Source: Ignavibacteria bacterium (lineage in GTDB: Bacteria > Bacteroidota > Ignavibacteria > Kapaibacteriales > UBA2268). From it: DNA of 64,000 nt. Of this stretch, positions 12,642-57,899 are shown one piece after another. Below the pieces are notes generated by a model. The model worked only from the letters and a program-made list of their open reading frames with translations. It was not told the origin of the DNA and ran no database searches. The number at the start of each line of letters is the position of its first letter. Within the stretch, counting starts at the first letter, position 1. The DNA is taken from the NCBI GenBank assembly GCA_016844745.1, contig JAERMQ010000002.1:62001-126000 (forward strand). Reading direction: 5' to 3'. Both the position numbers and the translations under genes were made by a program.

Positions 12642-12648
12642 TATTACG

Positions 12649-15212: not shown

Positions 15213-15221
15213 TATTTTGCT

Positions 15222-15632
15222 CTATTTCTTTTTCTTATTTATTGATTTATCAAAATATACAATATTTGCATTATTGTCCATAGTTAATTTACCGTTGAAT
15301 TTTTTTATTTTAAGACCAAGGAAAACCTTGACTCTTGAGAGTTCCAAGCCGGATTTCATAGCAAAGGCTGCTATTGGTATTCTTAGGGAATTATACCTCA
15401 ACATATCAATAAATATCTTATTTAATCTCTTTTTCGAAGGTCTTCTCTTACTTTGGGTGGCAGAATGAATAAAGATAATACCTGCAACCATACAACCAAA
15501 AAACATATAGGTCAAACCATCCGGAACATTTTGCAATAATTTAGGTAATGATTTGATGGATACTCGAATTGCAAAGAAGATACTTCCAAAGAAAATCCAA
15601 ATCATTCCTGTAATTAAAATAATTAAGTACAT
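15222..15632 (-). CDS. Small membrane protein of unknown function
   Basis: This 136-residue protein has two hydrophobic segments, about 1-23 and 40-60, followed by a basic cytosolic region (SKRRPSKKRLNK) and a Lys-rich C-terminus (SINKKKK). The family was not recognised. It lies 9 bp upstream of the site-2 protease gene on the same strand, so co-transcription is likely; whether it is a substrate or partner of that protease is unknown. Confidence 0.6.
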   Translation of the reverse strand: MYLIILITGMIWIFFGSIFFAIRVSIKSLPKLLQNVPDGLTYMFFGCMVAGIIFIHSATQSKRRPSKKRLNKIFIDMLRYNSLRIPIAAFAMKSGLELSRVKVFLGLKIKKFNGKLTMDNNANIVYFDKSINKKKK

Positions 15633-15773
15633 TATTTATTTAAATATTTCATGATAAATCAACATTCTATAAGACTTTATTTCAAGTTATTGGTTACCCG
15701 GTTATTTTCGAAAAAACGACAGATTAAAATGGTAAACAAAACTCTTAATTCATAACTAATAACTCATAATTAA

Positions 15774-39790: not shown

Positions 39791-39805
39791 TAATTAGGAA
39801 AAATA

Positions 39806-41116: not shown

Positions 41117-41132
41117 TTACTATGGAGAAAAA

Positions 41133-41894: not shown

Positions 41895-41930
41895 TTTAAT
41901 TTTTAAAGTTTAACAAACAAGGAGAACTAA

Positions 41931-42794
41931 ATGGCAAAAGAGTTCTGGAGATGGAAAGAATATAATTGGAAGAGTGAAAATATTAATTGGAACAATGGCG
42001 CTATCATAACCGGCGGTGTTGATGTCGGCTCGGTTAGCTCACAGGCAGTCGTGCTTGTTGGTGGGGAATTATTTGCATACTCAAGTATGAGAACCGGCTC
42101 TGATAGCCCGATGAGCGCTGTAAATTCAATGAATTGGGCGCTTGAAGGCACAGGTATGACTCTTGAAAACATAAAATACGTTGTTGGCACCGGTTATGGT
42201 CGCGTTAATGTTCCGTTTGCAAACAAAACAATAACTGAAATAGCATGTCACGCTCGCGGAGCAAATTTGATGTACGGCAATAGCGTTCGAACAATACTCG
42301 ATATGGGAGGTCAGGACTGCAAAGCAATCCGTTGCGATGAAAAGGGAAAAGTGACGAACTTTTTAATGAACGATAAGTGTGCCGCAGGAACAGGAAGGGG
42401 TATGGAAGTATTTGCAGACCTACTCTCAGTGCCGATTGAAGATGTAGGGGAATTATCATTTTACGTAGAAGAAGAACCACCGCCGGTAAGCAGCACTTGC
42501 GTAGTATTTGCTAAAACCGAAGCTACGGGATTATTACGCGAGGGCTGGCACAAGAATAAAGTAATTGCAGCCTATTGCTCTGCAATGGCTCACCGCGTAG
42601 TGTCATTACTTGAAAGAATCGGTGTTGAAGATGATTTCGTTATTACCGGTGGAATTGCAAAAAATGTTGGAGTTGTCAGGCGAATTGCAAAAGAAATCGG
42701 AATAAAAACACTTGAAACGGAATATGATTCCCAAATAGCCGGAGCATTAGGCGCAGCCTTGTTTGCACGCTCTTTGGCAGAGAAGGGAAAATAG
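41931..42794 (+). CDS. bzdQ: Benzoyl-CoA reductase activase subunit, BzdQ-like
   Basis: This 287-residue ASKHA ATPase is the second activase subunit. It has an N-terminal FWRWKEYNW stretch, the phosphate loop GVDVGSVSSQ, the MGGQDCKAIR motif, cluster Cys150 (KCAAGTGRGMEV) and Cys190 (SSTCVVFAKTE), and TGGIAKNVGVV. Size favours the bzd type over bcr, where BcrA is far longer. It lies 36 bp after bzdP. BzdP and BzdQ probably share a bridging [4Fe-4S] cluster. Confidence 0.87.
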   Translation: MAKEFWRWKEYNWKSENINWNNGAIITGGVDVGSVSSQAVVLVGGELFAYSSMRTGSDSPMSAVNSMNWALEGTGMTLENIKYVVGTGYGRVNVPFANKTITEIACHARGANLMYGNSVRTILDMGGQDCKAIRCDEKGKVTNFLMNDKCAAGTGRGMEVFADLLSVPIEDVGELSFYVEEEPPPVSSTCVVFAKTEATGLLREGWHKNKVIAAYCSAMAHRVVSLLERIGVEDDFVITGGIAKNVGVVRRIAKEIGIKTLETEYDSQIAGALGAALFARSLAEKGK

Positions 42795-42819
42795 ATTTTA
42801 GAAAATAAATAATTGAAAT

Positions 42820-43107
42820 ATGATAGCAAATTTCGGATATAAAGACGGTTCAGGTGATTTTTATATCATAATCGATACCGATAAATGCAATGGCTGCGGT
42901 GATTGTGTGCCGGTCTGCCCTGCCGGGATTTTAGAAGTACGTGATAATGAATATGACCCAATGGCAGATGACTTAATGGCAGCGGTAAAGGAAGAATTCA
43001 GGAAGAAAATTAAATATTCCTGCTCTCCCTGCAAGCCCGATAATATTGATTATACTTTGCCATGTGTAAAGGCATGCCAGTTTGATGCAATCACACATTC
43101 CTGGTAA
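42820..43107 (+). CDS. bzdM: 2[4Fe-4S] ferredoxin, BzdM-like
   Basis: This 95-residue ferredoxin is the likely electron donor to benzoyl-CoA reductase. The first cluster motif is CNGCGDCVPVCP. The second is spaced C-x2-C-x10-C-x3-C (CSPC...CVKAC), the widened form of Chromatium-type ferredoxins, the class found with the Thauera enzyme. It lies 25 bp after bzdQ and 25 bp before the BzdV-like gene. Confidence 0.85.
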   Translation: MIANFGYKDGSGDFYIIIDTDKCNGCGDCVPVCPAGILEVRDNEYDPMADDLMAAVKEEFRKKIKYSCSPCKPDNIDYTLPCVKACQFDAITHSW

Positions 43108-43132
43108 TATTGTGTTAACTTCGTTTTAGGTT

Positions 43133-45688
43133 ATGGAAAAAATTAATCTAAAAATAAACAATATCGATATATCAGTCGAAAGCGGTACTACTATATTGAA
43201 TGCTGCCGCAGAAGCAGGTATTTATATTCCCGTAATGTGCAGCCATCCGGATGTCCTACCATTCCATTCTATTGAACTTTCCGATTTTATTTATCAGGGA
43301 AATAATAAAATCGAAAACGACCCTGATGCTAAAATTGAATCCGTTCGTGGGTGCGGTATTTGCCTCGTTTATAATGAAAACACTTCTGAATTTCTTCCGT
43401 CATGCAAAGCCCATGTTGAAAATGGAATGTCAATTCAAACCGAGACGGAATCAGTAAAGAAGAGGCGTCAGGAAAATATGTCGAAAATCCTGGCAACTCA
43501 TCCACATTCATGTTTATCATGCAGCCAGCATGAAGGCTGCATTCCAATGACCGACATCTGCCCTGGTAATGTCGTTTTCAATGAAAGATGCTGTTCTTTA
43601 TTGAATAATTGCGAGTTCCAACGGGTTGTTGATTATGTTGGAATAGCGCCGGAAACACAACGATACCAATATGCCGGTTTGCCAATAATTACCGATGACC
43701 CTCTATTTAAGCGTGATTACAATTTATGTATATCTTGCGGACGATGCGTTCGAGTATGCCAGCAGGTCAAGGGAGTTTATGCATTGGGAGCTGTCATACA
43801 TGATGGCAAGCTGACAATCGGCACAGTTAACGGACCAATGTTAGATGATGCTGAATGCAAGTTCTGCGGCTCTTGCGTTGAAGTATGCCCAACCGGCGCT
43901 TTAATGGATAAGAATGGACCACGTCTGAAAAGTAAAGCGAATTTTGTTCCCTGTAAATCGGGCTGCCCCGGAGAGGTTGATATCCCGCAATACCTGCGAC
44001 TTGTTGCGATGGGAAAAACCCAGGAAGCTGCAGAAGTGATAGCTTCTAAACTTCCCCTTCCATCTGTTTTAGGTAAAGTATGTTTTCATCCATGCGAAAC
44101 AGATTGCAAGCATCGCGAGGTTTCGGAAATCCTGCATAAGACCAATGAAGCACTTAGTATCAGGCTCGTTAAAGATTATGCTATGTCAAACAGCAATCTT
44201 CCCGAAAGAAGGAAGTCAGCGCCAACATCCAAGCATGTTTCAATTATTGGTGCCGGTCCTGCCGGGCTTTCCGCAGCATTTTTCCTTAGTTCAAAGGGGC
44301 ATAAAATAACGGTATATGAGAAGGAGCCTGAGATAGGAGGAATGCTACGTTATGGTATTCCGCGATACAGGCTGCCGCTCGACGTATTGGAAAAAGATTT
44401 GAATTGGATTGCTGATGCAGAAATTGATTTCAAAACAAATGTTACATTCGGCAAAGATATTTCATTACAAACTCTCAAAGAAAGTTCAGATGCTATCTTC
44501 ATTGCAGTGGGATTATCAGAAAGCCGACGCCTTCCCACTCCTGGAGCCAATGACGAAAACATTCATGATGGTATTGGTTTCCTCAATAAAGTAGCGAAAG
44601 ATGGAATTGTTCATAACGCTTTTTCCGGGAAATCAGTAGTAATAGTCGGTGGCGGGAACGTAGCTACCGATGCTGCACGTTGTTCGGTAAGATTAGGCGC
44701 CGGATTAGTAACAATTGTTTGCCTCGAACAATATGATGAAATGCCGGCATATAAAGATGAAATTCGTGAATCGGAAGAAGAAGGAATTATCTTCAAGAAT
44801 GGCTGGGGAATTGAAGAGATTCAAGAAGGTGAAATTAGTAAAAAGAAAATCCGATTAATAAAATGTTCGAGTGTCTTCAATTCAAACGGGGCTTTTGCTC
44901 CGCAATTTGATGAATCCGAAAAAGAAGAAATTAATTGCAATATAGTTATTTCATGTATTGGTCAAAAAGCTGAATCAGCTATGGAAACCGGCAGCGACAT
45001 TGAAAGATTCTTCTCAAAAGGTCTAATTAAAATTAACAGGGATACCTGCGAAACAGAAATAAGAGGTATCTATGCAGGAGGTGATATCGCTTCCGGTCCG
45101 GCTTCAGTAATAGATGCAGTCGGAGCAGGTCGAAAGGCTGCCCGTTCGATTGATAGATTTCTTGGAGGCGACGGCAACATTGATTTCGATGATGAGTTAA
45201 GCGATGATTTTAATATGAAGTTAGGCAGGCAGGAAAGTTTCTGCATGTTAAAGCGAATCGAGCCGGATTTATTGGATGCCGGTTTGAGGAAAAATAATTT
45301 TGACGGAGTAGAGATTACTTATTCCCAAGAAACTGCCATTGCGGAATCTATGCGATGTTTGCAATGCGATTTACGATTGAAGTTGAGGCATAATCCGTCT
45401 CCTCCCGAAAAGTATTTCAAATTTACTCCTGAAATTATTTCTAAATTGCCGGAAATTGAAGGAGTAATTCAATTATTAGATGAAAATAAGGAAATATTTG
45501 CTATCAAAGGATGTGATAATTTACGCCGGACAGCCTTAGAGATGTTCAATGAAGGAAAAGCGGCTGCTTACTTATTATACGATGAAGATGCAATGTTTAC
45601 AAAACGCGAAAGTGAGCTATTGCAGCAATACTTGCAAAAGCATGGAAAGATGCCCGATAGCGGCGATGATTTGGATGATTTATTTTAA
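43133..45688 (+). CDS. bzdV: NAD(P)H:ferredoxin oxidoreductase-like, BzdV-like
   Basis: This 851-residue multidomain protein probably links pyridine nucleotide and ferredoxin pools. In order: a [2Fe-2S] ferredoxin-like domain (about 1-90), a NuoG/FdhA-type Cys-His region (HPHSCLSCSQHEGC), two [4Fe-4S] motifs (CISCGRCVRVC and CKFCGSCVEVCP), a GltD-like domain with FAD (GAGPAGLSAA) and NAD(P) (VGGGNVATDA) sites, and a C-terminal domain of about 110 residues. The family was named bzdV in Azoarcus bzd clusters, where its role is still presumed. The C-terminal tail DDLDDLF resembles that of BzdN. Confidence 0.82.
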   Translation: MEKINLKINNIDISVESGTTILNAAAEAGIYIPVMCSHPDVLPFHSIELSDFIYQGNNKIENDPDAKIESVRGCGICLVYNENTSEFLPSCKAHVENGMSIQTETESVKKRRQENMSKILATHPHSCLSCSQHEGCIPMTDICPGNVVFNERCCSLLNNCEFQRVVDYVGIAPETQRYQYAGLPIITDDPLFKRDYNLCISCGRCVRVCQQVKGVYALGAVIHDGKLTIGTVNGPMLDDAECKFCGSCVEVCPTGALMDKNGPRLKSKANFVPCKSGCPGEVDIPQYLRLVAMGKTQEAAEVIASKLPLPSVLGKVCFHPCETDCKHREVSEILHKTNEALSIRLVKDYAMSNSNLPERRKSAPTSKHVSIIGAGPAGLSAAFFLSSKGHKITVYEKEPEIGGMLRYGIPRYRLPLDVLEKDLNWIADAEIDFKTNVTFGKDISLQTLKESSDAIFIAVGLSESRRLPTPGANDENIHDGIGFLNKVAKDGIVHNAFSGKSVVIVGGGNVATDAARCSVRLGAGLVTIVCLEQYDEMPAYKDEIRESEEEGIIFKNGWGIEEIQEGEISKKKIRLIKCSSVFNSNGAFAPQFDESEKEEINCNIVISCIGQKAESAMETGSDIERFFSKGLIKINRDTCETEIRGIYAGGDIASGPASVIDAVGAGRKAARSIDRFLGGDGNIDFDDELSDDFNMKLGRQESFCMLKRIEPDLLDAGLRKNNFDGVEITYSQETAIAESMRCLQCDLRLKLRHNPSPPEKYFKFTPEIISKLPEIEGVIQLLDENKEIFAIKGCDNLRRTALEMFNEGKAAAYLLYDEDAMFTKRESELLQQYLQKHGKMPDSGDDLDDLF

Positions 45689-46099: not shown

Positions 46100-48184
46100 A
46101 TGCTGGATTCACTTTTCAAACCGAAATCGGTTGCTTTGATAGGAGCTTCAACCAAAGAGTTATCAATTGGTAATGTTATAATAAAAAATTTGCAGAAATA
46201 CGGATTCGTCGGACCTATTTATCCTATTAATCCGAAAGCGCCGGAAATTCGTGGAATCAAAGCCTATCCTACAATTAATGATGTCCCTGGAGAAATCGAC
46301 GTAGCCCATATCGTTATTCCACCGCAGCAGGTGCCGGAAGCAGTAGAAGCTTGTGGAAAAAAAGGTGTCAAGAATGTAATCATAAATACTGCAGGCTTCA
46401 AGGAAATGGGCGCAGAAGGCGAAGCCCTGCAGAATGATTTCGTTACAAAGGGAAAGAAATACGGCGTCCGGATGTTTGGACCGAATTGCCAGGGTATCAT
46501 TAATTCAGACCCGGCAATCAAAGCCTACTGCGATTTTACATTTACTTATCCTAAACCCGGGCATATTTCAATCGTAGCTCAAAGCGGCGGTGTTGGGGCT
46601 GTGATTATGCAGAATTTCTTTGACCTCGATGTCGGTATGCGCATGTATGCTTCAAACGGTAATGCATGCGATATTTCGATACCTGAAATTATCCGTTATT
46701 GGGGCAATGACGATGAAACGCGTGTTATTGTACTTTATGTTGAAAGTTTGGACGACCCGAAATATTTTATGGAAGTAGCTAAAGAGGTTGCAGCAAAGAA
46801 ACCGATATTGGCTATGAATGCGGGTAGAACAGAGGAAGGTTCTAAAGCAGCAACATCGCATACCGGCGGATTAGCAGGAGGAATCGCCACTGATTTAATT
46901 TTCAGGAAAACGGGTATTATCGGATTTCAGGATGCACAGGAAATGTGCCAGGCAGCGGTTGCTTTCGCTGCACAGCCCATTCCAAAAGGCAATAGAATCG
47001 GAATGATAACCAATACCGGTGGTCCGGCAATAATTGCAACTGATGAATTAGTCGAAGGTGGTTGCGAAATTCCACCGATTACAGAACGTGCAGAGAAGAT
47101 TTTGAAAGGAACTATGTTTCCCGCGGCTTCGATAAGTAATCCAATCGATGTTGTTGCCACAGCAGGAGCGCCACAATTCAGAAGCGCACTGGACGTAATG
47201 ATGGATGAAGAACAAATCGATGCCGTATATATTAATTTCGTTACTCCGCCATTTGTGGATTGCGAAAGTGTTGCCAAAGAATTTGCAGAAGTTAGCCGCC
47301 AGCGCCGTAAACCAATCGTCTGTAATTATATGACCGATAAAGCCCAATGGACTGAAACTACCCGGATTCTTCAGGATGGCTCGATACCCTGCTACGATTT
47401 CCCCGGAACTGCAGCAAAAGCAATGACTTCTCTCTGCAGATATGGTAAATTAAAATCACGTGAGACTGGTACAGTTAGGAATTTTTCAGGAATCGATGTA
47501 AGCAAGGCTGAATCTATTATTCAAGATGCCAAAGCGATGGGCAACAAGATGCTCGGCGCTAAAGATGTTTATGAACTTTTTGAGATTTATGGAATATCCG
47601 TTGCCGGATGGGCATTAGCCGACAGCCCGGAAGAAGCTGCAGCAGTTGCTTCACGGATTGGTTACCCCGTCGTACTGAAGGCTGAATCCGATGCAATTAT
47701 CCATAAAAGCGATGTTGGTGGGGTTGCACTCAATCTTCAGGATGCAGAATCAGTATTTTCGGAAGCAGGAAAAATGCGCCAAAAGTTTAATGGAAAGAAT
47801 ATTAGGTTCTTTATTCAAAAATTTATTCAAAACGGTAGGGAACTTATCATCGGCGCTAAAGCAGAAACCGGACTTGGGCATATTGTCATGTTCGGAATGG
47901 GTGGAATTTATGTTGAGGTATTGAAGGATGTTGCTTTTGAATTGACTCCCGTAACCAACTTTGAAGCAAGGCAAATGATTAATTCCCTTAAAATGTCGCC
48001 ATTACTCAAAGGAATTCGCGGTCAAATGGGAATTAATCTTGATTTAGCCGCCGAATATATCGAGCGTGTATCTATGTTTGTTTCAAATCATCCTGAAATT
48101 GAAGAGTTAGACCTGAATCCACTAATTGCTTATGATGATAGAATTATTGCTGTGGATGGAAGGTTAAAATTAATTACGAATTAA
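46100..48184 (+). CDS. ADP-forming acyl-CoA synthetase, fused alpha/beta subunits
   Basis: This 694-residue enzyme converts an acyl-CoA, ADP and phosphate to acid and ATP, or the reverse. The alpha-type region (about 1-450) has the CoA-binding fold and phosphorylated His254 in TSHTGGLAG. The beta-type ATP-grasp region (about 470-694) carries a second His535 in IIHKSDVGG. Both His are needed for the family's phosphate relay. Substrate is unknown; acetyl-CoA is common, but aryl or dicarboxyl acids are possible. It is the only CoA-activating enzyme seen in the island, so it could activate benzoate or recover ATP from a product (inferred). Confidence 0.85.
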   Translation: MLDSLFKPKSVALIGASTKELSIGNVIIKNLQKYGFVGPIYPINPKAPEIRGIKAYPTINDVPGEIDVAHIVIPPQQVPEAVEACGKKGVKNVIINTAGFKEMGAEGEALQNDFVTKGKKYGVRMFGPNCQGIINSDPAIKAYCDFTFTYPKPGHISIVAQSGGVGAVIMQNFFDLDVGMRMYASNGNACDISIPEIIRYWGNDDETRVIVLYVESLDDPKYFMEVAKEVAAKKPILAMNAGRTEEGSKAATSHTGGLAGGIATDLIFRKTGIIGFQDAQEMCQAAVAFAAQPIPKGNRIGMITNTGGPAIIATDELVEGGCEIPPITERAEKILKGTMFPAASISNPIDVVATAGAPQFRSALDVMMDEEQIDAVYINFVTPPFVDCESVAKEFAEVSRQRRKPIVCNYMTDKAQWTETTRILQDGSIPCYDFPGTAAKAMTSLCRYGKLKSRETGTVRNFSGIDVSKAESIIQDAKAMGNKMLGAKDVYELFEIYGISVAGWALADSPEEAAAVASRIGYPVVLKAESDAIIHKSDVGGVALNLQDAESVFSEAGKMRQKFNGKNIRFFIQKFIQNGRELIIGAKAETGLGHIVMFGMGGIYVEVLKDVAFELTPVTNFEARQMINSLKMSPLLKGIRGQMGINLDLAAEYIERVSMFVSNHPEIEELDLNPLIAYDDRIIAVDGRLKLITN

Positions 48185-48443: not shown

Positions 48444-49643
48444 ATGCATAAGATTGAATCATCGAAGAAATTAAAAGAAATTATGTCCGACTATTTCGTT
48501 GGTATGGGTGTTCCCGGTAAAAAATTCGCATGGTGTACCAGCGTTGGTCCGGCGGAATTATTGCGCAGCTTCGGTTTCGAGGTTTATTTTCCCGAGAATC
48601 ACGGCGCTTTATTAGGTACAACAAGAACTTGCCATGATTTTATCCCGGTTGCAGCGGAAATCGGTTATTCAAGCGATATATGCTCATATTTGACAAGCGA
48701 TATCGGCTCGTATATCAGTAAAAATACTCCTTTAATGAAACATTACGGTTTGGAGGGAGTTCCGAAGCCGGATATACTCGTTTATAATACCAATCAATGT
48801 CGTGAAGTCCAGGACTGGTTTACTTACTTTGCCCGTGAGTTCAATTGTCCAATCGTAGGTATTCAATCGCCACGTTATCTTGATCTTGTTAAAAAAGAAG
48901 ATATAGAAAATGTAACTTCTCAATTTAAAGCCCTCATCCCTTATTGCGAGGAAACATCCGGTACGAAATTCGATATCGACAGTTTTCGTGAAACATTAAA
49001 ACTGAGCCGCGAAGCAACAAATTTATGGAAAAAATCACTCGAAACAGCTAAGCATATTCCTGCCCCGATTTCGTTTTTCGATAGCACTATTCACATGGGT
49101 CCAATAGTTGTTTTGAGAGGAACCCAGGTTGCAAAAGATTATTACGCTGAATTATCAAACGAATTGGATGGATACGTAGCCCGTGGCTCAGGAATAATTG
49201 AAAAAGAGCAAATAAGAGTTTATTGGGAAGGTATGCCTATCTGGGGTAAATTGCGTTATATGTCTGATTTGTTCTCAAATAATAATGCAGCAGTCGTTGC
49301 GTCGACATATTGCAATAGCTGGGTTTTCGATGCCTTCGACGAAACTAATCCGTTTGAATCATCTGCCTTAGCATATTCTTCGATTTTCATTAACCGAAGT
49401 GAAAATGTGAAAACTGAAATGATGATAAAGCTGATAGAGGAATACAAAATAGATGGAGTTGTTTTCCATGATTCCAAAACTTGTTTTAATAATACAAATT
49501 CCCGGTTCGGAATGCCTCAAAGACTGAAGGAATCTACTTCGGTAGATACTTTGATTATCGAAGGCGACCTATGCGATTTAAGATTTTTTTCCGAAGCACA
49601 GACGACTACTAAAATCGAAACTTTTATTGAGCAAATGAAATAA
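48444..49643 (+). CDS. Orphan HgdB/BcrB-family Fe-S protein (2-hydroxyacyl-CoA dehydratase-like)
   Basis: This 399-residue protein belongs to the HgdB/BcrB/BcrC fold family but lies apart from bzdNO. Family-like Cys contexts include FAWCTSVGPAELL, RTCHDF, NTNQCREVQDW, STYCNSW and KTCFNN. No second large subunit is adjacent; normally two such subunits form the catalytic core. Orphan HgdB-like proteins paired with one activase include E. coli YjiM/YjiL and the Carboxydothermus double-cubane-cluster protein, a homodimer. The third activase at 60728 may be its partner (inferred). Substrate unknown. Confidence 0.8.
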   Translation: MHKIESSKKLKEIMSDYFVGMGVPGKKFAWCTSVGPAELLRSFGFEVYFPENHGALLGTTRTCHDFIPVAAEIGYSSDICSYLTSDIGSYISKNTPLMKHYGLEGVPKPDILVYNTNQCREVQDWFTYFAREFNCPIVGIQSPRYLDLVKKEDIENVTSQFKALIPYCEETSGTKFDIDSFRETLKLSREATNLWKKSLETAKHIPAPISFFDSTIHMGPIVVLRGTQVAKDYYAELSNELDGYVARGSGIIEKEQIRVYWEGMPIWGKLRYMSDLFSNNNAAVVASTYCNSWVFDAFDETNPFESSALAYSSIFINRSENVKTEMMIKLIEEYKIDGVVFHDSKTCFNNTNSRFGMPQRLKESTSVDTLIIEGDLCDLRFFSEAQTTTKIETFIEQMK

Positions 49644-49646
49644 TTT

Positions 49647-50603
49647 ATGAAAAAAATTATGAAAGAACAAAAACTCAAAATAGGTATTATAGGCTTAGGT
49701 CCCGTAGGACAAGTACTTGCTGTTCATTTTCATGATGCCGGCTGCGAAGTAGCAATATGTGACAGTGATAAGGATAAAATGAATATGATTCGCAATCATG
49801 GATTGGAGCTTGTAGGCGTCATCAAAAAAACTGCTTTTTTCCCGCATAATTATTCCTCGATGGTCGAGCTTCTTGAGCATGAAATCGATGTTTTGATTAC
49901 AGCAGTAAAATCATACAGAGTCGATAAAATCTTAGACCAGGTTGAAAAATACAAACACAATGATATATATCTGTTATGCGCCCAAAATGGCATTGATATT
50001 GGTCAAAAATACACAAGCCATTTTAACGAATCCCAAATTTTCAGGTACGTTGTTAATTTTGGAGGTATGCTGCACGCACCAAATGTTACCCATATTACTT
50101 TTTTTGACCCTCCGAATTATATCGCTTCATTGAATGATACACATAAAAATATTGTGAATCAGCTTGCTTCCACTCTGACTGATGTTGGACTTGCTACGGA
50201 AAGCATCGATTCCTTCTCCCTTGCAAATCATATTTGGGATAAAACTATACAGGTTTGTGCTATTAGCCCGTTATGCGGCATTGCTAATATGACAATTAAA
50301 GAAGCAATAAACAATCAGGGTACAATGGAAATTGTTGAACAGATTATATTGGAATCTGTTGATGTTGCAAAAGCAGAAGGTATTAAATTGGGAGATAATT
50401 TTGTTAAATTGGCTTTAAGGCACATGAAAGGAGCAGGAAATCACCTCCCTTCACTTGCAATCGATATTATGAATAACCATGAAACAGAAATCGACTTTTT
50501 TAATGGAAAAATAGTGGAATACGGAAAAAAACATTACATTCAAACTCCACTAAATTTAATATTTACAAATCTTGTAAAAGCTATTACCAAAAAAAATGGA
50601 TAA
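49647..50603 (+). CDS. PanE/ApbA-family 2-oxoacid reductase (first paralogue)
   Basis: This 318-residue protein has an NAD(P)-binding N-terminus (GIIGLGPVGQVLA) and the ketopantoate reductase fold. It keeps the AQNG motif and the catalytic pair, Lys199 in HIWDKT and Glu281 in HETEID. PanE proteins reduce ketopantoate; Lactococcus PanE also acts as a D-2-hydroxyacid dehydrogenase on branched-chain and aromatic 2-oxoacids. It starts 3 bp after the HgdB-like gene and overlaps the aminotransferase gene. Its context suggests a dedicated 2-oxoacid/2-hydroxyacid role (inferred). A close paralogue is at 51753. Confidence 0.78.
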   Translation: MKKIMKEQKLKIGIIGLGPVGQVLAVHFHDAGCEVAICDSDKDKMNMIRNHGLELVGVIKKTAFFPHNYSSMVELLEHEIDVLITAVKSYRVDKILDQVEKYKHNDIYLLCAQNGIDIGQKYTSHFNESQIFRYVVNFGGMLHAPNVTHITFFDPPNYIASLNDTHKNIVNQLASTLTDVGLATESIDSFSLANHIWDKTIQVCAISPLCGIANMTIKEAINNQGTMEIVEQIILESVDVAKAEGIKLGDNFVKLALRHMKGAGNHLPSLAIDIMNNHETEIDFFNGKIVEYGKKHYIQTPLNLIFTNLVKAITKKNG

Positions 50604-51705
50604 ATCCAAAAATTTAAATATATTCTCAATTCCCAGGAACATTATCGAACTTGAGCCTTATAAGCCCGGACGTACTATTGAGGAGATAAAAAGAGAATAT
50701 GGATTAAATAAAGTAATCAAATTGGCTTCGAATGAAAATCCTTTAGGCGTTTCTCCTCTTGCCATTCAGGCTATGTTTGCTTCTATAAACCAAATAAACC
50801 GGTATCCTGATATTACAAGTTCATTACTTTGTGCAAAATTATCTGAAGTTTTCAATATCAGTATTGATAATATCATTACTGCACATGGCTCGGAAGCGAT
50901 AATTCAAGTGATTATGCGAACTTTTCTTTTGGAAACCGATGAAGTTATTACTGCATCGGGAACCTTTGTCGGTTTTTACGTAATAGCCCAGGCACGTGGT
51001 GTAAGAATGAAACTTGTTCCATTAAAGGATTACCGGTTCGATTTAAATGCTATTGCTAATGCCATCACAGAAAAAACAAAACTAATCTATCTTGTTAATC
51101 CTAACAGCCCAACGGGTAATTATTTTACTAAAACCGAATTCGGGGAATTCCTGAAATTAGTACCGGAAAATGTGTTGATTATCCTGGATGAAGCCTATTT
51201 TGAATTCGTTAAGGAACGGGATGATTTTCCCGATTCTCTTAACTATTCTCATAATAATATTATTACTTTACGGACATTTTCGAAAGCTTATGGATTGGCA
51301 GGTATGCGTATTGGGTATGGCTTTGCCAATCCGGAATTTATTAAATTAATGATGAAGGTAAAATTACCATTTGAACCCGGAATTCCACAGCAGGCGGCAG
51401 GCGTGGCTGCATTGAGCGATAAGCAATTCCTGGATTATTATTTGGAGATGAACAGAACCGGAAGGGAATATTTTTACGATTGTTATAATAAACTCGGAAT
51501 TGAATATATTAAATCCGATACTAATTTTGTTATGAGTATTTTCGATTCCGAAGATAGAGTAATTAATATTACTGAGAAACTTTTACGAAAAGGTATTATT
51601 GTAAGGCCTCTTAAGGCTTTCAGATTGCCTCATTGTATAAGGGTAACAGTTGGACTTCCTGAAGAAAATGAAATTTATTGCAAAGCATTGCAAAATGTTT
51701 TATAG
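50596..51705 (+). CDS. HisC-like PLP aminotransferase
   Basis: This 369-residue fold-type I aminotransferase resembles histidinol-phosphate aminotransferase (LASNENPLG, NPNSPTG, ILDEAYFEF). The PLP Lys230 is in RTFSKAYGLAGMRIGYG. HisC-like enzymes often act on aromatic or other amino acids, so the substrate is open. No other histidine genes are near. It overlaps the preceding PanE-like gene by 8 nt and is followed by a second PanE-like gene, which suggests an amino acid/2-oxoacid/2-hydroxyacid series. Confidence 0.82.
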   Translation: MDKSKNLNIFSIPRNIIELEPYKPGRTIEEIKREYGLNKVIKLASNENPLGVSPLAIQAMFASINQINRYPDITSSLLCAKLSEVFNISIDNIITAHGSEAIIQVIMRTFLLETDEVITASGTFVGFYVIAQARGVRMKLVPLKDYRFDLNAIANAITEKTKLIYLVNPNSPTGNYFTKTEFGEFLKLVPENVLIILDEAYFEFVKERDDFPDSLNYSHNNIITLRTFSKAYGLAGMRIGYGFANPEFIKLMMKVKLPFEPGIPQQAAGVAALSDKQFLDYYLEMNRTGREYFYDCYNKLGIEYIKSDTNFVMSIFDSEDRVINITEKLLRKGIIVRPLKAFRLPHCIRVTVGLPEENEIYCKALQNVL

Positions 51706-51752
51706 AATTATAAAAATTATTTAAAATTTGAAAATTAAACCGTTGAATTATA

Positions 51753-52706
51753 ATGGATCCAAAGAAATATAAAATCGGTATTGTAGGGCTTGGTCCTGTT
51801 GGGCTAACACTTGCAGTTCATATTAAGGAGGCAGGGTGCGAAATAGCCGTTTGCGATATGGTTAAGGAAAAGATGAATCTTATTTGGAACTCAGGAATAG
51901 AACTAATAGGTGTAATCGAGAAGACCTGTTTCGTAAATTATTCTTATTCCTCATTCGAAGAGCTTTTGAAACACGATATTGATATTCTTATTTGCGCTTC
52001 TAAAGCATATCATGTTGATAATATCTTAGACCAGATCGTATGCCATAGCAATAATCCGAATCTCTTAATAATAAGCGCACAAAATGGAATCGGGGTTGCC
52101 TCAAAGTATGCTAATCGTTTTAACGAATCCCGGGTATTGAGAATGGTTGTTAACTTTGCAGGAAATCTTAATGCACCAAATGTTGTTAATGTTACTTTTT
52201 TTAATCCTCCGAATTTTATTGCATCCAAAGATGATTCCAGATTGGACATTGCCGAATGGTTTTCCGAAGTGCTTAGTTCAGTTAATTTGACAACCGTTGC
52301 TACCGATTCCTTCACCCAGGCTTCGAAAATCTGGGAAAAAACCATATTAAATGCAGCGTTAAGTCCACTTTGTGCCATATCAAAATTAACGATGAAAGAA
52401 GCCATGTCGAACCCTGATACACTCGAAATAGCTGAAAAAATAATTATAGAAGCTATCGAGGTTGCCAAGGCTGAGGAGATAAAACTATCGGATAATTTTG
52501 TTAAATTGGCAATTCGTTATTTGAAAAATGCCGGTGACCATTTCCCATCTCTTGCAGTTGACCTTCTGAATAAGCGGGAAACCGAAATTGATTATATGAA
52601 CGGAAAACTGGTTGAATACGGTAGAAAGCATTATGTTCGCACACCGCTGAATTTGACATTTACTAATTTGGTAAAAGCTATTACCATGAAAAATAAAAAT
52701 GATTGA
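51753..52706 (+). CDS. PanE/ApbA-family 2-oxoacid reductase (second paralogue)
   Basis: This 317-residue protein is a paralogue of the gene at 49647, with near-identical stretches such as ETEID and RTPLNLTFTNLVKAIT against QTPLNLIFTNLVKAIT. It has GIVGLGPVGLTLA, SAQNG, Lys196 (KIWEKT) and Glu278. The catalytic pair is intact, so it should be active. Two copies flanking an aminotransferase imply either two substrates or opposite directions. It overlaps mocA by 8 nt. Confidence 0.78.
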   Translation: MDPKKYKIGIVGLGPVGLTLAVHIKEAGCEIAVCDMVKEKMNLIWNSGIELIGVIEKTCFVNYSYSSFEELLKHDIDILICASKAYHVDNILDQIVCHSNNPNLLIISAQNGIGVASKYANRFNESRVLRMVVNFAGNLNAPNVVNVTFFNPPNFIASKDDSRLDIAEWFSEVLSSVNLTTVATDSFTQASKIWEKTILNAALSPLCAISKLTMKEAMSNPDTLEIAEKIIIEAIEVAKAEEIKLSDNFVKLAIRYLKNAGDHFPSLAVDLLNKRETEIDYMNGKLVEYGRKHYVRTPLNLTFTNLVKAITMKNKND

Positions 52707-53289
52707 AACGGATGATGAGACTTGCCCTGGCGCAATTATTTTAGCCGCCGGATTATCGGAAAGAATGCAAAGTCCTAAACCGTTATTGAAATTTGATTCG
52801 CAAAAAAGATTTATCGATAAAATATTTGATGAATATTTAAAATTTGGCTGTAACGAGGTTATTGTCGTAATAAATCATGCTCTAACCGGACAATTTGAAT
52901 CAATCAGGGGAATTAAATTTGCTGTCAATACAAATCCGGAAAAGGGAAGATTTTCTTCTATTAAAATAGGTGTAGAGTTCCTGGAATCCTCCAATTTTTG
53001 CTTTATTCAAAATATTGATAATCCATTCGTTAATCAGGATGTTCTCAGGATTCTCAATCAAGTTAAGGAACAATCAGATTATATCGTGCCGACATTCGAA
53101 GGCAGGGGAGGTCATCCGATTTTATTAAATAAAAATATTATTGATAATATAAAAAAATGTGAAAAGGATGATTTGAATTTGCGTGAATTATTAGCAAAAT
53201 ATAAGAGTAAGAAGGTAGAATTTAATGATAATTCAATTTTAATAAATATTAATACAAAAGAAGAATATAATTATTATTTTCATTTTTAA
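52699..53289 (+). CDS. mocA: Molybdenum cofactor cytidylyltransferase-like protein (MocA)
   Basis: MocA makes molybdopterin cytosine dinucleotide (MCD), the cofactor of xanthine-oxidase-family hydroxylases. The 196-residue nucleotidyltransferase has the loop IILAAGLSERMQSPKPLL, the metal-site region NIDNPFV and GRGGHPILL. It lies just before xdhC and near the hydroxylase genes, and it overlaps the upstream PanE-like gene, so co-transcription is expected. 4-hydroxybenzoyl-CoA reductase is known to use MCD. Confidence 0.82.
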   Translation: MIETDDETCPGAIILAAGLSERMQSPKPLLKFDSQKRFIDKIFDEYLKFGCNEVIVVINHALTGQFESIRGIKFAVNTNPEKGRFSSIKIGVEFLESSNFCFIQNIDNPFVNQDVLRILNQVKEQSDYIVPTFEGRGGHPILLNKNIIDNIKKCEKDDLNLRELLAKYKSKKVEFNDNSILININTKEEYNYYFHF

Positions 53290-53350
53290 ATATTTTCCTT
53301 TAGAGTTTTAAAAAATAAAATACGAATATATAAATTAAATTGATAGAAAA

Positions 53351-54121
53351 ATGGAAAATCTCTACGAAAAAATAATAGAACTCAGGAAAAATAATCGTAA
53401 ATCCATTTTATGTACGATGACATCACATAGTGGTTCAACCCCACGCAAAACCGGTTCAAAAATGCTCGTAACCGATACGGGTGAGATATTCGGAACCATC
53501 GGTGGTGGCTTGCTTGAGAAAAATATAATTGAAGAATCATTAAAATTAACCAGTAATCCCGAACCAAAATTATTCAGGTATAATTTAACCAAAGACCTTG
53601 GCATGACCTGTGGCGGCTCTGTGGAAGTATTCTGCGAACCGTTATTTTCCAATCTGAATTTATATATTTTCGGTGGCGGTCATATTGGTAAATCTCTTGC
53701 CGGACTTGTTGAAAACCTGAATTTTAATATTACTGTTATAGATGAGAGGACAGAAATATTCGAAACTTATGGAAGAACAAGCGCTGTTCATGTATCAAAG
53801 CAATTTGAAGAATTTATTGAAGAAACGAACTTTGGAGAAACTTCATTCATTGTAATTGTCACAAAGGGGCATGAAACTGATTTTCATGTGATTAAATCCT
53901 GCATCAACAAACAATATGCTTACATGGGAATGATAGGCAGCAAACGAAAAGTGGAAGAAATGAGAAAAAAGTTGATAAATGAAAATATTGCTACATTGGA
54001 ACAATTAAACAACATTGATATGCCGATTGGGATAGATATTATGGCAGAAAGTCCGGATGAGATTGCTATCAGCATTGCAGCTAAACTAATTCTTGAGAAA
54101 AATAAATTGTTGAAAAAATAG
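53351..54121 (+). CDS. xdhC: XdhC-family Mo cofactor sulfuration/insertion factor
   Basis: XdhC proteins bind molybdenum cofactor, protect it and promote its sulfuration before insertion into xanthine-dehydrogenase-like enzymes. The 256-residue protein has the N-terminal XdhC/CoxI domain (SHSGSTPRKTGSKMLV, GTIGGGLLE, MTCGGSVEVFCEPL) and the C-terminal Rossmann domain (YIFGGGHIGKSLAG, MIGSKRKVEEM, PIGIDIMAESPDEIA). It follows mocA and precedes the korDABC genes. Confidence 0.88.
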   Translation: MENLYEKIIELRKNNRKSILCTMTSHSGSTPRKTGSKMLVTDTGEIFGTIGGGLLEKNIIEESLKLTSNPEPKLFRYNLTKDLGMTCGGSVEVFCEPLFSNLNLYIFGGGHIGKSLAGLVENLNFNITVIDERTEIFETYGRTSAVHVSKQFEEFIEETNFGETSFIVIVTKGHETDFHVIKSCINKQYAYMGMIGSKRKVEEMRKKLINENIATLEQLNNIDMPIGIDIMAESPDEIAISIAAKLILEKNKLLKK

Positions 54122-54129: not shown

Positions 54130-54378
54130 ATGGGAATTAAAAGAAAAAAAATTGAAATTGAAATTGATGAACGGCTTTGCAAAGGCTGTGATATTTGCGT
54201 TATTCTTTGCTCTGAGAAAGTTTTTACTATAAGCAAAAAAATCAACTCAAACGGATATTATGTACCGATTCCTTCGAATATCGAAAATTGTAACGGATGC
54301 CTGATTTGCGAACTTATATGCCCCGAACTTGCCGTAATTCTTGAAAAAACCGAATTAGATGAATTGGTGGCATTATGA
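54130..54378 (+). CDS. korD: 2-oxoacid:ferredoxin oxidoreductase delta subunit (ferredoxin-like)
   Basis: This 82-residue 2[4Fe-4S] protein has cluster motifs CKGCDICVILC and CNGCLICELICP and is the electron-transfer subunit of the complex encoded downstream. Its TGA overlaps the korA ATG (ATGA). The frame has a GTG one codon earlier (54127), but ATG at 54130 was chosen. Confidence 0.85.
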   Translation: MGIKRKKIEIEIDERLCKGCDICVILCSEKVFTISKKINSNGYYVPIPSNIENCNGCLICELICPELAVILEKTELDELVAL

Positions 54379-55517
54379 ACAATCAAAAATATCTCGATTC
54401 GTTGAAGAACAAAACATTATTTCTTCAGGGTGATGAAGCGGCAGCCTACGGCGCTCTTTTTGCAGGATGTAATTTTTTTGCCGGATATCCTATTACTCCT
54501 GCTTCCGAAATAGCGGAATTAATGTCCCGTGAGCTTCCGAAATCAGGGGGCTATTATATCCAGATGGAAGATGAAATTGCAAGTATCGGTGCGGTTATAG
54601 GAGCGGTTTGGTCCGGTGGGAAATCAATGACTGCTACCTCAGGTCCCGGATTTTCGCTAATGCAGGAAAATATCGGGTATGCCTGCATGACCGAAAGCCC
54701 TTGCGTAATTGTGGATGTTCAGCGTTCCGGACCTTCAACGGGTCAGGCAACAAAAGGCGCTCAGGGTGATGTTTTGCAAGCACGCTGGGGTACGCATGGC
54801 GACCATGAAATGATAGCGTTATCGCCCTGGTCATCGCAGGAATCTTTCGATTTGATGATTGAAGCATTTAATCTATCTGAGAAATACCGAAACCCGGTGA
54901 TATTTCTTCTAGACGGCGAAGTAGGCCACATCAGGGAAAAGGTAGTATTTCCGGATATCAATGAATTAAATATTTATCAAAGAAATATCAGTCTCGAAAA
55001 AATTGATGTATTTGGCGGACAAAGGATTCCGCCAATGATTGAATTTGGAATGGGGCAGAGGATTCATGTAACGGGCTCAACACATAAAAGCAATGGAATG
55101 AGGGATGTATCCTCGATGGAGGCTCATGATACACTGATACGTCGAATATATGATAAAATATCTTCCAACAGGAATGAAATTGCGCATTTCGAAACTCACT
55201 ACATAGATAATATGGATTATCTTGCAGTATCTTATGGCGCTGCTGCAAGACCCACTATGGGAGCGGTTCTCAAGCTGAGGGAAAGGGGTATAAAAATCGG
55301 TTTTTTGCGACTGATTACAATTTGGCCCTTTCCGATTGATATTTGCACGGAATTAGGTAAAAGAACAAAGAAAATATTTGTACCGGAAATGAATCTCGGA
55401 CAAGTATCCCGTGAGATTGAACGCTTTGTTAATTGTCCGGTTGAGAGTGTTTCAAAAATCGGAGGAATTTCGCACACAATAGATGAAATTACAAATTATA
55501 TTTCCGCTAACATTTGA
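54375..55517 (+). CDS. korA: 2-oxoglutarate:ferredoxin oxidoreductase alpha subunit
   Basis: This 380-residue subunit carries the pyrimidine-binding part of the TPP enzyme: QGDEAAAYGALFAGC, GYPITPASEI and TATSGPGFSLMQENIGYA. In Thauera, 2-oxoglutarate:ferredoxin oxidoreductase regenerates the reduced ferredoxin used by benzoyl-CoA reductase; its presence here fits that role. 2-oxoglutarate is preferred by context, but other 2-oxoacids are possible. It overlaps korD by 4 nt. Confidence 0.86.
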   Translation: MNNQKYLDSLKNKTLFLQGDEAAAYGALFAGCNFFAGYPITPASEIAELMSRELPKSGGYYIQMEDEIASIGAVIGAVWSGGKSMTATSGPGFSLMQENIGYACMTESPCVIVDVQRSGPSTGQATKGAQGDVLQARWGTHGDHEMIALSPWSSQESFDLMIEAFNLSEKYRNPVIFLLDGEVGHIREKVVFPDINELNIYQRNISLEKIDVFGGQRIPPMIEFGMGQRIHVTGSTHKSNGMRDVSSMEAHDTLIRRIYDKISSNRNEIAHFETHYIDNMDYLAVSYGAAARPTMGAVLKLRERGIKIGFLRLITIWPFPIDICTELGKRTKKIFVPEMNLGQVSREIERFVNCPVESVSKIGGISHTIDEITNYISANI

Positions 55518-55592
55518 TTAAGTTATTTAAGAAGATAATTTTATTAATAGAATTTTATTATTAGAAAATATTATTACAAAAGTATAAATAAA

Positions 55593-56417
55593 ATGGAAAA
55601 TAAATACGTTAAATATTTAAGAAATGAAACTCTTCCTACGGAATTTTGTGTTGGATGCGGATGCGGAACCGTTCTTAATTTATTCTGTCATGTTATCGAT
55701 GAAATGCAAATAAATCCTGACGATATAATAACAGTAACAGGTATAGGCTGCTCATCATGGATACCATCACCTTACTTTTCAGCCGATACACTGCATACAA
55801 CTCACGGCAGGGCAATTGCCTTCGCTACGGGAGTTAAAGTAATGAAGCCCGGTAAACATGTAATAGTTATAGCAGGAGATGGCGATTTAGCAGGAATAGG
55901 CGGAAATCATTTAATCCACGCTGCAAGAAGAAACATAGGCTTAACAGTATTTCTCGTTAACAATTACATATACGGTATGACCGGCGGACAGGTAAGCCCA
56001 ACAACTCCATCAACGGTCAATACTGCAACAACACCCTACGGAAATGTCGAACAACCTATGCAAATCGCTGAATTGGTTGCTGCTGCAGGGGCATCCTATG
56101 TTGCAAGGTGGACTACTTATCATGTTTTCCATTTAAAAAAAGCAATGAAAGAGGCAATATCCAAGAAGGGATTTTCATTTATCGAAATCTGCTCCCAATG
56201 TCCAACAAGTTATGGTAAGCGAGTAGGAAAGCGCGAAGGCATAGACCAGTTATTGGATTTCAAAGAAAATTCCATGAATATTCAGAATGTTTCAGGAATG
56301 CGGGAAGATGAACTTGAAGGAAAGTACATTGTCGGGAAACTTGTAGAACGCAACAGGTTGGAATTTGTCGATGGACTACTAAATATTAATGCCCAATTTG
56401 CAGAAGGTGTCCGATGA
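55593..56417 (+). CDS. korB: 2-oxoglutarate:ferredoxin oxidoreductase beta subunit
   Basis: This 274-residue TPP-binding subunit has FCVGCGCGTVLN, the TPP motif AGDGDLAGIGG and NNYIYGMTGGQVSPTTP. CPTSYGKR near the C-terminal third is typical. A 75-bp AT-rich gap separates it from korA. Its TGA overlaps the korC start. Confidence 0.87.
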   Translation: MENKYVKYLRNETLPTEFCVGCGCGTVLNLFCHVIDEMQINPDDIITVTGIGCSSWIPSPYFSADTLHTTHGRAIAFATGVKVMKPGKHVIVIAGDGDLAGIGGNHLIHAARRNIGLTVFLVNNYIYGMTGGQVSPTTPSTVNTATTPYGNVEQPMQIAELVAAAGASYVARWTTYHVFHLKKAMKEAISKKGFSFIEICSQCPTSYGKRVGKREGIDQLLDFKENSMNIQNVSGMREDELEGKYIVGKLVERNRLEFVDGLLNINAQFAEGVR

Positions 56418-56932
56418 ATATCAGGTTTTCCGGTTTCGGTGGGCAGGGTATTATTTTATCTGGAGTTATTCTTGGGTGGGCAGCGGTTCTCGATGGTAAG
56501 AATGCAATTCAAACGCAATCTTATGGCAGTTCGGCACGCGGAGGGTCATGCAAATGCGACGTAATAATCCAGGAAAGCGCAATCTATGAATTAGAGCCGG
56601 AACACAACGATATACTTATTACATTTTCGCAGCCTTCGTATAACGCATTTATTAAATCCCTTAAAGAAGGAGGACATTTATTCTACGATAGCGATTTAGT
56701 TACCGTGGATACTAACGAATTTCCCTGCAACTCAATTCCTGCAACAGATATAGCTTTCAAAGAATTTAAGCAAAAAATTTATGCTAATATGCTTATGCTT
56801 GGTTTTTTAGCTGAAAAAATTCGATTTATCGGATTCCGGGCAATTGAAAAAAGTATTTCTCAATATGTACCAACTAAAACTATCGAAATGAATATTGCGG
56901 CATTTCGCATGGGTATTGATTTGGCAAAATAA
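56414..56932 (+). CDS. korC: 2-oxoglutarate:ferredoxin oxidoreductase gamma subunit
   Basis: This 172-residue subunit has the gamma-domain start RFSGFGGQGIILSGVILG and QSYGSSARGGSCKCDVII. It completes the KorDABC set and overlaps korB by 4 nt (ATGA). The electrons from 2-oxoacid oxidation would go to ferredoxin. Confidence 0.86.
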   Translation: MNIRFSGFGGQGIILSGVILGWAAVLDGKNAIQTQSYGSSARGGSCKCDVIIQESAIYELEPEHNDILITFSQPSYNAFIKSLKEGGHLFYDSDLVTVDTNEFPCNSIPATDIAFKEFKQKIYANMLMLGFLAEKIRFIGFRAIEKSISQYVPTKTIEMNIAAFRMGIDLAK

Positions 56933-57003: not shown

Positions 57004-57885
57004 ATGTATATTTCCGATTTCAAATATTTCAAACCAACATCGCTCGACGAAGCTGTGAAAACCCTGTCAGGGTGCGTTAATGGAACCGTTCTTGCAGGCG
57101 GCACCGACCTTTTGGTTGAAATTAAAAATGGTCTTCGAAAGGCAGGAGAAATTGTATCCCTGGCTAAAGTATCAGAACTGAAAACCATCTATGTTACCCA
57201 GGAAAAAGTTGAAATAGGTGCATGTATTACACACAACGAATTAATAAAATCTCCTGTAATCAATGAATTTCTTCCGGCATTATCTGAAGCTGCTTCTAAA
57301 ATCGGCTCTCACCAGATTAGAAATGTTGGAACTGTCGGAGGTAATTTATGTACCGGGGCATCATGCGCTGATACCGCTCCTGTACTAATGGCATACGATG
57401 CAGTTGTGGAATTGCTTTCGGTTCATGGAGTCAGGCAGGTTGCTCTGAAAAATTTCTTTTTTAATCATCATAAAACCAATATTAAAAATAATGAGATTAT
57501 GCATAAAATTATTGTTCCAATTAGTAAGAATCAGAGGACAGCTACATTTGAAAAATTCGGATTAAGGGAAGCCGGTTCAATATCGGTTGTATCGGTAGCG
57601 GTTGCCCTGGAATTCAATGAAAATATTTGCACAAAAGCTAATGTTGTGATTGGCGCATGCGCACCGACTCCGGTACTTTGTATATTTGCGGGGAATTTAT
57701 TTGTTGGGAAAAATAAACCGGAAATTTCTGATGACGAATTGTTGGAAACCGCAGCCAAAGCCGCAGTAGAAGCTTCAATTCCGATTGATGATATTCGGGC
57801 AAGTGCGGAATACAGGCGTCGATTGCTTTATGTCCTTACTCAGAAAGCCGCAGCAGAAGCCATAAAACGAGCTAATGTAAATTAA
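57004..57885 (+). CDS. Mo-hydroxylase FAD-binding subunit (medium)
   Basis: This 293-residue protein is the FAD subunit of a xanthine-oxidase-family enzyme: VLAGGTDLLVEIKNG and VGGNLCTGASCADTAP are the two FAD motifs, with the CO_deh_flav C-terminal domain after residue about 185. HcrB of Thauera 4-hydroxybenzoyl-CoA reductase carries an extra Cys-rich [4Fe-4S] loop near residues 120-160; no such insert is seen here, so this is a classic xanthine-dehydrogenase-type subunit. It lies 14 bp before the fused small/large subunit gene. Confidence 0.85.
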   Translation: MYISDFKYFKPTSLDEAVKTLSGCVNGTVLAGGTDLLVEIKNGLRKAGEIVSLAKVSELKTIYVTQEKVEIGACITHNELIKSPVINEFLPALSEAASKIGSHQIRNVGTVGGNLCTGASCADTAPVLMAYDAVVELLSVHGVRQVALKNFFFNHHKTNIKNNEIMHKIIVPISKNQRTATFEKFGLREAGSISVVSVAVALEFNENICTKANVVIGACAPTPVLCIFAGNLFVGKNKPEISDDELLETAAKAAVEASIPIDDIRASAEYRRRLLYVLTQKAAAEAIKRANVN

Positions 57886-57899
57886 TCTATTGGAAAATT

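Follow-up and report, generated by a model that had tools for sequence, protein, structure and literature searches.

A conserved module of HadB-like protein, PanE and BadF-type activase in a benzoyl-CoA degradation island: candidate enzymes between arylpyruvates and benzoyl-CoA

The window analysed here, a 64,000-nucleotide stretch of DNA from an Ignavibacteria bacterium (assembly GCA_016844745.1, contig JAERMQ010000002.1, positions 62,001 to 126,000), carries two PanE-like genes of the ketopantoate reductase (KPR) family, PanE1 and PanE2, on either side of a HisC-like aminotransferase gene and directly behind a gene for an HgdB-like protein. These four genes form a tight run on the + strand, with 3 nt between the HgdB-like gene and PanE1, an 8-nt overlap of PanE1 with the HisC-like gene, and 47 nt between the latter and PanE2. 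The run lies in an island of genes for the degradation of benzoyl-coenzyme A (benzoyl-CoA) that spans 34 to 62.6 kb of the window; the host genome is a 5.0 Mb draft that is 93% complete. Part of the run belongs to a conserved module of a HadB-like dehydratase subunit, PanE and a BadF-type activase, together with a CoA ligase. The linkage within this module is strong. Directly established are the genes themselves, the conservation of their clustering and fusion, the folds predicted for their products and the conserved cysteines of the cluster site. It is rather likely that the module converts aromatic amino acids or arylpyruvates anaerobically into benzoyl-CoA, with PanE acting as a D-2-hydroxyacid dehydrogenase alongside the CoA ligase, the HadB-like dehydratase and its activase.

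The PanE subfamily was found in four of 395 genomes of the phylum, and a separate search for the ring-opening hydrolase Oah returned the same four and no others (Fisher p = 1e-9, in a test that treats related genomes as independent, which they are not). In two relatives, G294 and G059, a benzoyl-CoA cluster contains an HgdB-like gene (65-70% identical) followed by PanE, which in G059 forms an in-frame fusion with the activase. A search with a PanE alignment against 84,980 species genomes yielded 80 loci, which with four loci of G160, G294 and G059 make 84 PanE-seeded loci, 60 of Bacteroidota type and 24 others. The in-frame PanE-activase fusion recurs in 35 of the 84 (Pfam was run on one fusion). 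Neighbourhood counts were made by tblastn on loci that frequently end early; by these counts, the module HgdB gene is present in 51 of the 60 Bacteroidota-type loci, with had in 48 and oah in 44, and in 17/24 of the others. Carriers of the PanE module are found in Bacteroidota, Ignavibacteria, KSB1, Marinimicrobia, Desulfobacterota, Asgard and Thermoplasmata-type archaea. The literature searched, with subscription journals mostly outside it, yielded no account of a module that joins PanE, activase and HgdB; the module is widespread and apparently undescribed.

An alignment of the HgdB-like protein alone, run against 395 Desulfobacterota genomes, identified 64 carriers, and 39 of their loci were read out. 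Of these 39 HgdB-seeded loci, 38 have an activase no more than 2 kb away, 24 an AMP ligase, 16 a thiolase, 13 an ADP-forming acyl-CoA synthetase (ACD type), 12 the indolepyruvate oxidoreductase (IOR) subunit IorA and seven a PaaK-like ligase. Homologues of the ACD-type synthetase are also present in 24/60 Bacteroidota-type loci, so that an ADP-forming ligase is often found beside the module, as suits the proposal in the initial annotation that the ADP-forming synthetase of the window is the CoA donor. PanE is present in eight HgdB-seeded loci and a GlcD/F-type FAD-FeS dehydrogenase, recognised by Pfam, in 13, and no locus has both; GlcD/F is on the same strand and within 2.7 kb of HgdB in eight of the 13. 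Four further loci hold, instead of PanE or GlcD/F, a distant KPR-like gene (26-28% identity), which was counted apart from module PanE. PanE and GlcD/F are unrelated yet share the interconversion of 2-oxoacids and 2-hydroxyacids, and PanE is therefore read as a 2-hydroxyacid dehydrogenase. A protein with a pair of ACT domains, which may sense an aromatic amino acid, adjoins PanE in 10/24 non-Bacteroidota PanE-seeded loci and in 8/39 HgdB-seeded loci (L095:6764-7213; L150:12221-12673, PF19571).

Profiles from Pfam and NCBIfam/TIGRFAM were applied with their cut-offs, and AlphaFold models, judged by predicted local distance difference test (pLDDT), were compared with the PDB by template modelling (TM) score. 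The best PDB match of the HgdB-like protein is the HadB alpha subunit of 2-hydroxyisocaproyl-CoA dehydratase (3o3m, 4.2e-55), followed by MbdO (5.5e-42) and BzdO (6.1e-25); its model (pLDDT 93.4) gives TM scores of 0.91-0.93 to HadB and 0.87-0.90 to MbdO and BzdO. The cluster of BzdO is held by Cys95, Cys128 and Cys380 (PMC11971306). Their counterparts in the HgdB-like protein, Cys80, Cys119 and Cys347, are invariant in a 45-row alignment, as are Cys31 and Cys290. The protein has the HadB-type fold and the three-Cys cluster site of 2-hydroxyacyl-CoA dehydratases and, judged from sequence and model, is a probable (R)-2-hydroxyacyl-CoA dehydratase subunit. A quick tree with one long row places the module HgdB-like proteins and BcrB/BzdO on opposite sides of one branch (SH-aLRT 97), and the module group is marked by Cys31, Trp261, Cys290 and a Val (Ile in one) at the column of BzdO His131. 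This column was considered as a marker between reductases and dehydratases and judged weak because MbdO and Bacteroidota BcrB have Phe there; it is kept solely as “Val as in HadB”. Separately, Cys290 falls in one column with a Cys of the double-cubane subunit BzdN, a placement that is uncertain because identity is only about 20%.

The initial annotation had placed the PanE pair right after an orphan HgdB-like gene. The adjacency is as described, but the gene is not really an orphan, because the island also encodes a probable BadF/HgdC-family activase. This activase is 56% identical to that of the G294 cluster, carries the usual motifs with Cys122 and Cys161, and is homologous to the activase fused to PanE in the 35 loci mentioned above. 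The link that had been drawn between the reductases and an HgdB-type dehydratase draws strong support, on comparative grounds, from the conserved adjacency, the PanE-activase fusions, the GlcD/F genes near PanE-less modules and the HadB-type fold.

The HgdB-like protein, activase and PanE might instead belong to the ring pathway of benzoyl-CoA, with for instance a ring-hydroxylated aryl-CoA or a cyclic hydroxyacyl-CoA as substrate in place of the side chain of an aryllactate. The setting in Bacteroidota, where the module lies between a ligase and thiolase, had, oah and dch genes, is consistent with this notion, as are the complete co-occurrence with Oah in the phylum sample and the closeness of the fold to MbdO and BzdO. 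Most Desulfobacterota loci, however, hold the module without bcr, oah or had genes, and in sulfate reducers it often stands beside IorAB, a phenylacetate-CoA ligase (PaaK-like) and a thiolase, sometimes with a GlcD/F-type 2-hydroxyacid dehydrogenase. Moreover, the nearest relative of the HgdB-like protein is HadB and not a benzoyl-CoA reductase subunit, and the window has separate benzoyl-CoA reductase genes. A role in ring degradation is thus considered unlikely, even if it is the strongest of the rivals to the aryllactate route.

The aryllactate route receives support from Desulfococcus multivorans, for which the published account describes a phenylacetate/phenylpyruvate-specific proteomic cluster, Dmul_C24740-24870, without bcr genes, and growth on phenyllactate (PMC5109826). 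That text proposes oxidation to phenylglyoxylate and leaves the last step open (PMC5109826). In genome G573, taken as D. multivorans, the stretch at 2.791-2.795 Mb holds genes for an HgdB-like protein, activase, PanE, ACT protein and IorB. Next to them are genes for a thiolase, a response regulator, two histidine kinases, a TRAP system and CoA ligases (names of the last few taken from their order relative to PMC5109826), and this gene order is the order published for Dmul_C24740-24870 (PMC5109826). G573 also has two genes for a HAD-hydratase fusion (L149:8112-10154 and 14549-16591), about 4.4 kb apart and identical at 99.8% of DNA and 99.7% of protein positions. One copy belongs to each of two adjacent aromatic clusters, the neighbour being a cinnamate/3-phenylpropanoate operon by order and position. 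Near-identical HAD-hydratase genes in both clusters point to cinnamoyl-CoA as a shared intermediate, although the identity could be accounted for by nothing more than a recent duplication.

A non-aromatic 2-hydroxyacid, such as the 2-hydroxyisocaproate or 2-hydroxyglutarate of clostridial amino acid fermentation, might instead be the substrate of the module. PanE of Lactococcus acts on branched-chain 2-oxoacids, and the nearest characterised dehydratase to the HgdB-like protein is the 2-hydroxyisocaproyl-CoA enzyme. The neighbours of the module are nevertheless aromatic throughout, including benzoyl-CoA and 4-hydroxybenzoyl-CoA reductases, IorAB and PaaK-like ligase, and the D. multivorans cluster responds to phenylacetate and phenylpyruvate (PMC5109826), rendering this reading improbable.

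PanE1 and PanE2 are close paralogues with intact catalytic residues, as the initial annotation had recognised: they are 57% identical, both exceed the TIGR00745 cut-off and match Pfam ApbA/ApbA_C, and the KPR Lys/Glu pair is kept as K199/E281 in PanE1 and K196/E278 in PanE2. Their nearest sequence matches are D-mandelate dehydrogenases (3wfi, 1.4e-19; 8wl1, 3.6e-18), compared with 9e-4 for E. coli KPR. D-mandelate dehydrogenases are likewise the best PDB matches of the PanE2 model (pLDDT 95.8), but KPR structures are about as close, and the fold search gives no clear separation of the two. The PanE alignment shows an invariant Asp35 at the end of beta-2, an NAD(H)-type sequence feature that suggests NAD(H) as the cofactor. 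In the substrate-site Asn pair, presumably the pantoate-site residues of KPR, the second Asn is Ser in both PanEs and the first is Val in PanE1. Replacement of this first Asn by Val or Ile is confined to PanE1 and its G160 orthologue, so that the substrate of PanE1 may have changed. PanE2 is 56-71% identical to PanEs within the bcr clusters of relatives, and in the PanE tree the nearest named relatives of the window proteins are from Ignavibacteria and Bacteroidota. Each window PanE pairs with a different G160 gene, and the duplication thus predates the split of the two genera. As a side observation, two adjacent genes at 11730-13554 resemble squalene/phytoene synthases (HpnC/HpnD type), judged by eye, and a similar pair seems to adjoin PanE2 in G160 (L017:10952-12760).

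The HisC-like protein scores above the TIGR01141 cut-off of 276.6 bits and is a member of the hisC sequence family; a PDB search also returned a putative phenylalanine aminotransferase (4r2n, 5.9e-43), ranked below two HisC structures. Neither hisB (IGPD) nor hisD (histidinol dehydrogenase) was found in the 93% complete host genome, and hisD was also not found in G160, which is 100% complete and carries the same PanE1-HisC pair. The HisC-like protein is therefore probably not a histidine enzyme, and a role in histidine biosynthesis was set aside; it is probably an aromatic amino acid aminotransferase. The PanE1-HisC pair is found only in the window genome and G160, and no second case of the full PanE-HisC-PanE trio was seen among the loci of relatives compared. 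Conservation of gene order is thus wide for HgdB-PanE, with or without the activase, extends to G160 for PanE1-HisC and does not reach the trio, leaving the HisC part of the module lineage-specific.

The two window reductases carry the label of a vitamin B5 (pantothenate) enzyme, and the reading that they are the KPRs of this genome, that the HisC-like protein is an ordinary hisC product and that the clustering is incidental deserved testing, since no other PanE-family gene is over the cut-off (PanE1 and PanE2 are the only PF02558/PF08546 genes of the host genome) and no ilvC was found there. The presence of panB in the host genome and the hisC score are further points in its favour. The pan operon that the initial annotation had considered is not there: panB is alone on another contig without pan neighbours. 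Only 13 of 118 phylum genomes have a PF08546 gene (105 are without), whereas a DUF2520 gene, of the family to which we take PanG to belong, occurs in 31/31 genomes of the order, including the host. PanG is an alternative ketopantoate reductase (Miller et al. 2013, as cited by PMC4207893). Taken with the tracking of benzoyl-CoA genes by the PanE subfamily and the missing hisB and hisD, and with the lack of ilvC weighed in, these data make it unlikely that PanE1 and PanE2 are the pantothenate enzyme, although the lack of another PanE and of ilvC leaves a side role in pantothenate synthesis conceivable. Housekeeping is the least probable reading of all.

For the aryllactate route, we infer the substrates, reaction direction, NADH use and role of the HisC-like protein as follows. 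The HisC-like aminotransferase would convert an aromatic amino acid to an arylpyruvate, which PanE, judged by its family and by the GlcD/F genes of loci that lack PanE, would reduce with NADH to an (R)-aryllactate; that the 2-hydroxyacid is probably an aryllactate follows from the benzoyl-CoA/4-hydroxybenzoyl-CoA degradation genes of the island. The ADP-forming ligase, from its position, would yield aryllactyl-CoA. The activase would then pass one low-potential electron, driven by ATP, into the HgdB-like protein, for which fold, cysteines and activase suggest a dehydration of aryllactyl-CoA with cinnamoyl-CoA or 4-coumaroyl-CoA as the product. From there, beta-oxidation would lead to benzoyl-CoA or, from tyrosine, 4-hydroxybenzoyl-CoA, to be degraded by the neighbouring reductases. 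In phenylacetate users, a carboxylating IOR would complete the circuit; photosynthetic bacteria make phenylpyruvate in a ferredoxin-dependent reaction. The initial annotation had proposed the core of this scheme, a 2-oxoacid/2-hydroxyacid pair feeding an HgdB-type dehydratase, an idea that is largely upheld but needs to be confined to aromatic substrates; the aromatic context, the activase and the lineage-specific nature of the HisC part had escaped it.

Several observations weigh against this route. To our knowledge, the known 2-hydroxyacyl-CoA dehydratases are heterodimers, and tblastn at the checked Desulfobacterota loci found a second HGD-D subunit (HadC/FldC type) at one only, L177, although very distant subunits could escape such a search; the other HGD-D genes of the window island are bzdN and bzdO only. 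Some PanE-seeded loci have no HgdB-like gene within the DNA covered. The Bacteroidota modules lie inside benzoate operons without IorAB, and a role nearer to ring degradation is therefore possible. The mutual exclusion of PanE and GlcD/F reaches only p = 0.035 by Fisher test, on genomes that are again not independent, and in five of the 13 GlcD/F loci the gene is 5 kb off on the opposite strand. The rarity of the PanE1-HisC pair and the loss of an active-site Asn in PanE1 point the same way. Finally, the comparison with D. multivorans takes G573 as that organism, with genes matched to the published locus tags by order and position, and the text of PMC5109826 contains no statement that the HgdB-like protein, activase or PanE were detected.

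The module nevertheless supplies candidate enzymes for a step left unexplained in published work on sulfate reducers. How phenylacetate and phenylpyruvate reach benzoyl-CoA in strict anaerobes that do without Pad enzymes was described as unclear in the case of D. multivorans (PMC5109826). A 2026 study of a benzene-degrading anaerobe draws a route through cinnamoyl-CoA in which one enzyme is a “yet unassigned dehydratase” (PMC13416013). Both questions are now testable because the module provides concrete candidate genes and a natural fusion. It further suggests that an HGD-D protein encoded by one gene can act as a dehydratase, and cautions that “panE” and “hisC” labels in such genomes need not mean vitamin or histidine genes.

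Table 1. Features of the benzoyl-CoA degradation island (window coordinates).
Feature	Position	Strand	Evidence or remark
dch-like hydratase	34417-35190	-	60-64% similarity to gene beside oah in L019/L020
oah, ring-opening hydrolase	35206-36291	-	TIGR03200 599.5 bits, above cut-off
bzdN, bzdO, bzdP, bzdQ, ferredoxin, bzdV: ATP-dependent benzoyl-CoA reductase and electron supply	38666-45688	+	TIGR03190, TIGR03191, TIGR03192 above cut-off
ADP-forming acyl-CoA synthetase (ACD type), probable CoA-activating enzyme	46100-48184	+	Pfam ATP-grasp_5, Succ_CoA_lig, CoA_binding_2
HgdB/HadB-like subunit, probable (R)-2-hydroxyacyl-CoA dehydratase	48444-49643	+	PF06050; best PDB match HadB
PanE1, KPR-fold 2-oxoacid reductase paralogue, 318 aa	49647-50603	+	TIGR00745 163 bits
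HisC-like, probable aromatic amino acid aminotransferase, 369 aa	50596-51705	+	TIGR01141 325.8 bits
PanE2, KPR-fold 2-oxoacid reductase, canonical module member, 317 aa	51753-52706	+	TIGR00745 152 bits
MobA-like and XdhC-like molybdenum cofactor maturation genes	52699-54121	+	probably serve hydroxybenzoyl-CoA reductase
2-oxoacid:acceptor oxidoreductase alpha, beta, gamma (KorABG type), probable ferredoxin source	54375-56932	+	NF006412 529.5 bits, cut-off 411
4-hydroxybenzoyl-CoA reductase-like: FAD subunit 57004-57885, fused FeS+Mo subunit 57900-60698	57004-60698	+	
BadF/HgdC-type activase, probable ATP-driven electron donor to HgdB-like protein	60728-61486	+	TIGR00241 179 bits, above cut-off
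had, 6-hydroxycyclohex-1-ene-1-carbonyl-CoA dehydrogenase	61507-62568	+	TIGR03201 432.7 bits, above cut-off

In the surrounding island (Table 1), the MobA-like gene overlaps PanE2 by 8 nt. The best NCBIfam match of the ACD-type synthetase is HydDutCoALig, at 510 bits and under its cut-off. The 4-hydroxybenzoyl-CoA reductase-like genes reach 948 bits with TIGR03194, slightly below the cut-off of 994.6, and TIGR03193 matches the N-terminal part of the open reading frame (ORF) that TIGR03194 matches; the fused FeS-Mo ORF has a full-length homologue of the same size in G294, 79% identical. The window bzdN, bzdO and bzdQ (38666-42794) are 63-70% identical to their counterparts in the Heimdall/Hodarchaeota loci L078 and L079, whereas Bacteroidota relatives have a different, Bcr/Mbd-like reductase set that is 22-44% identical to the bzd genes, which suggests transfer of benzoyl-CoA reductase between distant lineages. 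At 31097-34395, two - strand ORFs of 748 and 402 aa have about 157 nt in common, and the start of the 748-aa ORF is therefore probably wrong.

Four known systems resemble the module or its parts. The PanEs share with the D-mandelate dehydrogenases of the ketopantoate reductase family (3wfi, 5x20, 8wl1) the fold, the Lys/Glu pair, the Asp at the end of beta-2 and the closest sequence, but identity is only about 21-24% and Asn is replaced by Ser at one substrate-site position. The class I benzoyl-CoA reductases (BzdNOPQ, BcrABCD, MbdONPQ) likewise combine a catalytic subunit with an activase of the same superfamily, and the window has a separate bzd set; the module HgdB-like proteins differ from them in forming a group of their own (Cys31, Trp261, Cys290; Val/Ile at the BzdO His131 column). 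Like the clostridial (R)-2-hydroxyacyl-CoA dehydratase pathways (HadABC/HadI, FldABC/FldI), the module has a 2-oxoacid reductase, CoA activation, a three-Cys HGD-D subunit and a BadF/HgdC-family activase. Unlike them, it has one HGD-D subunit and not two, a CoA ligase in place of a CoA-transferase and a KPR-type dehydrogenase that is often fused to the activase, and it is embedded in benzoyl-CoA oxidation rather than fermentation. The D. multivorans cluster shares with the module the HgdB-like protein, activase, PanE, AMP ligase, IorA- and IorB-like proteins, thiolase and HAD-hydratase, and differs in having no HisC-like gene and, according to PMC5109826, no bcr genes.

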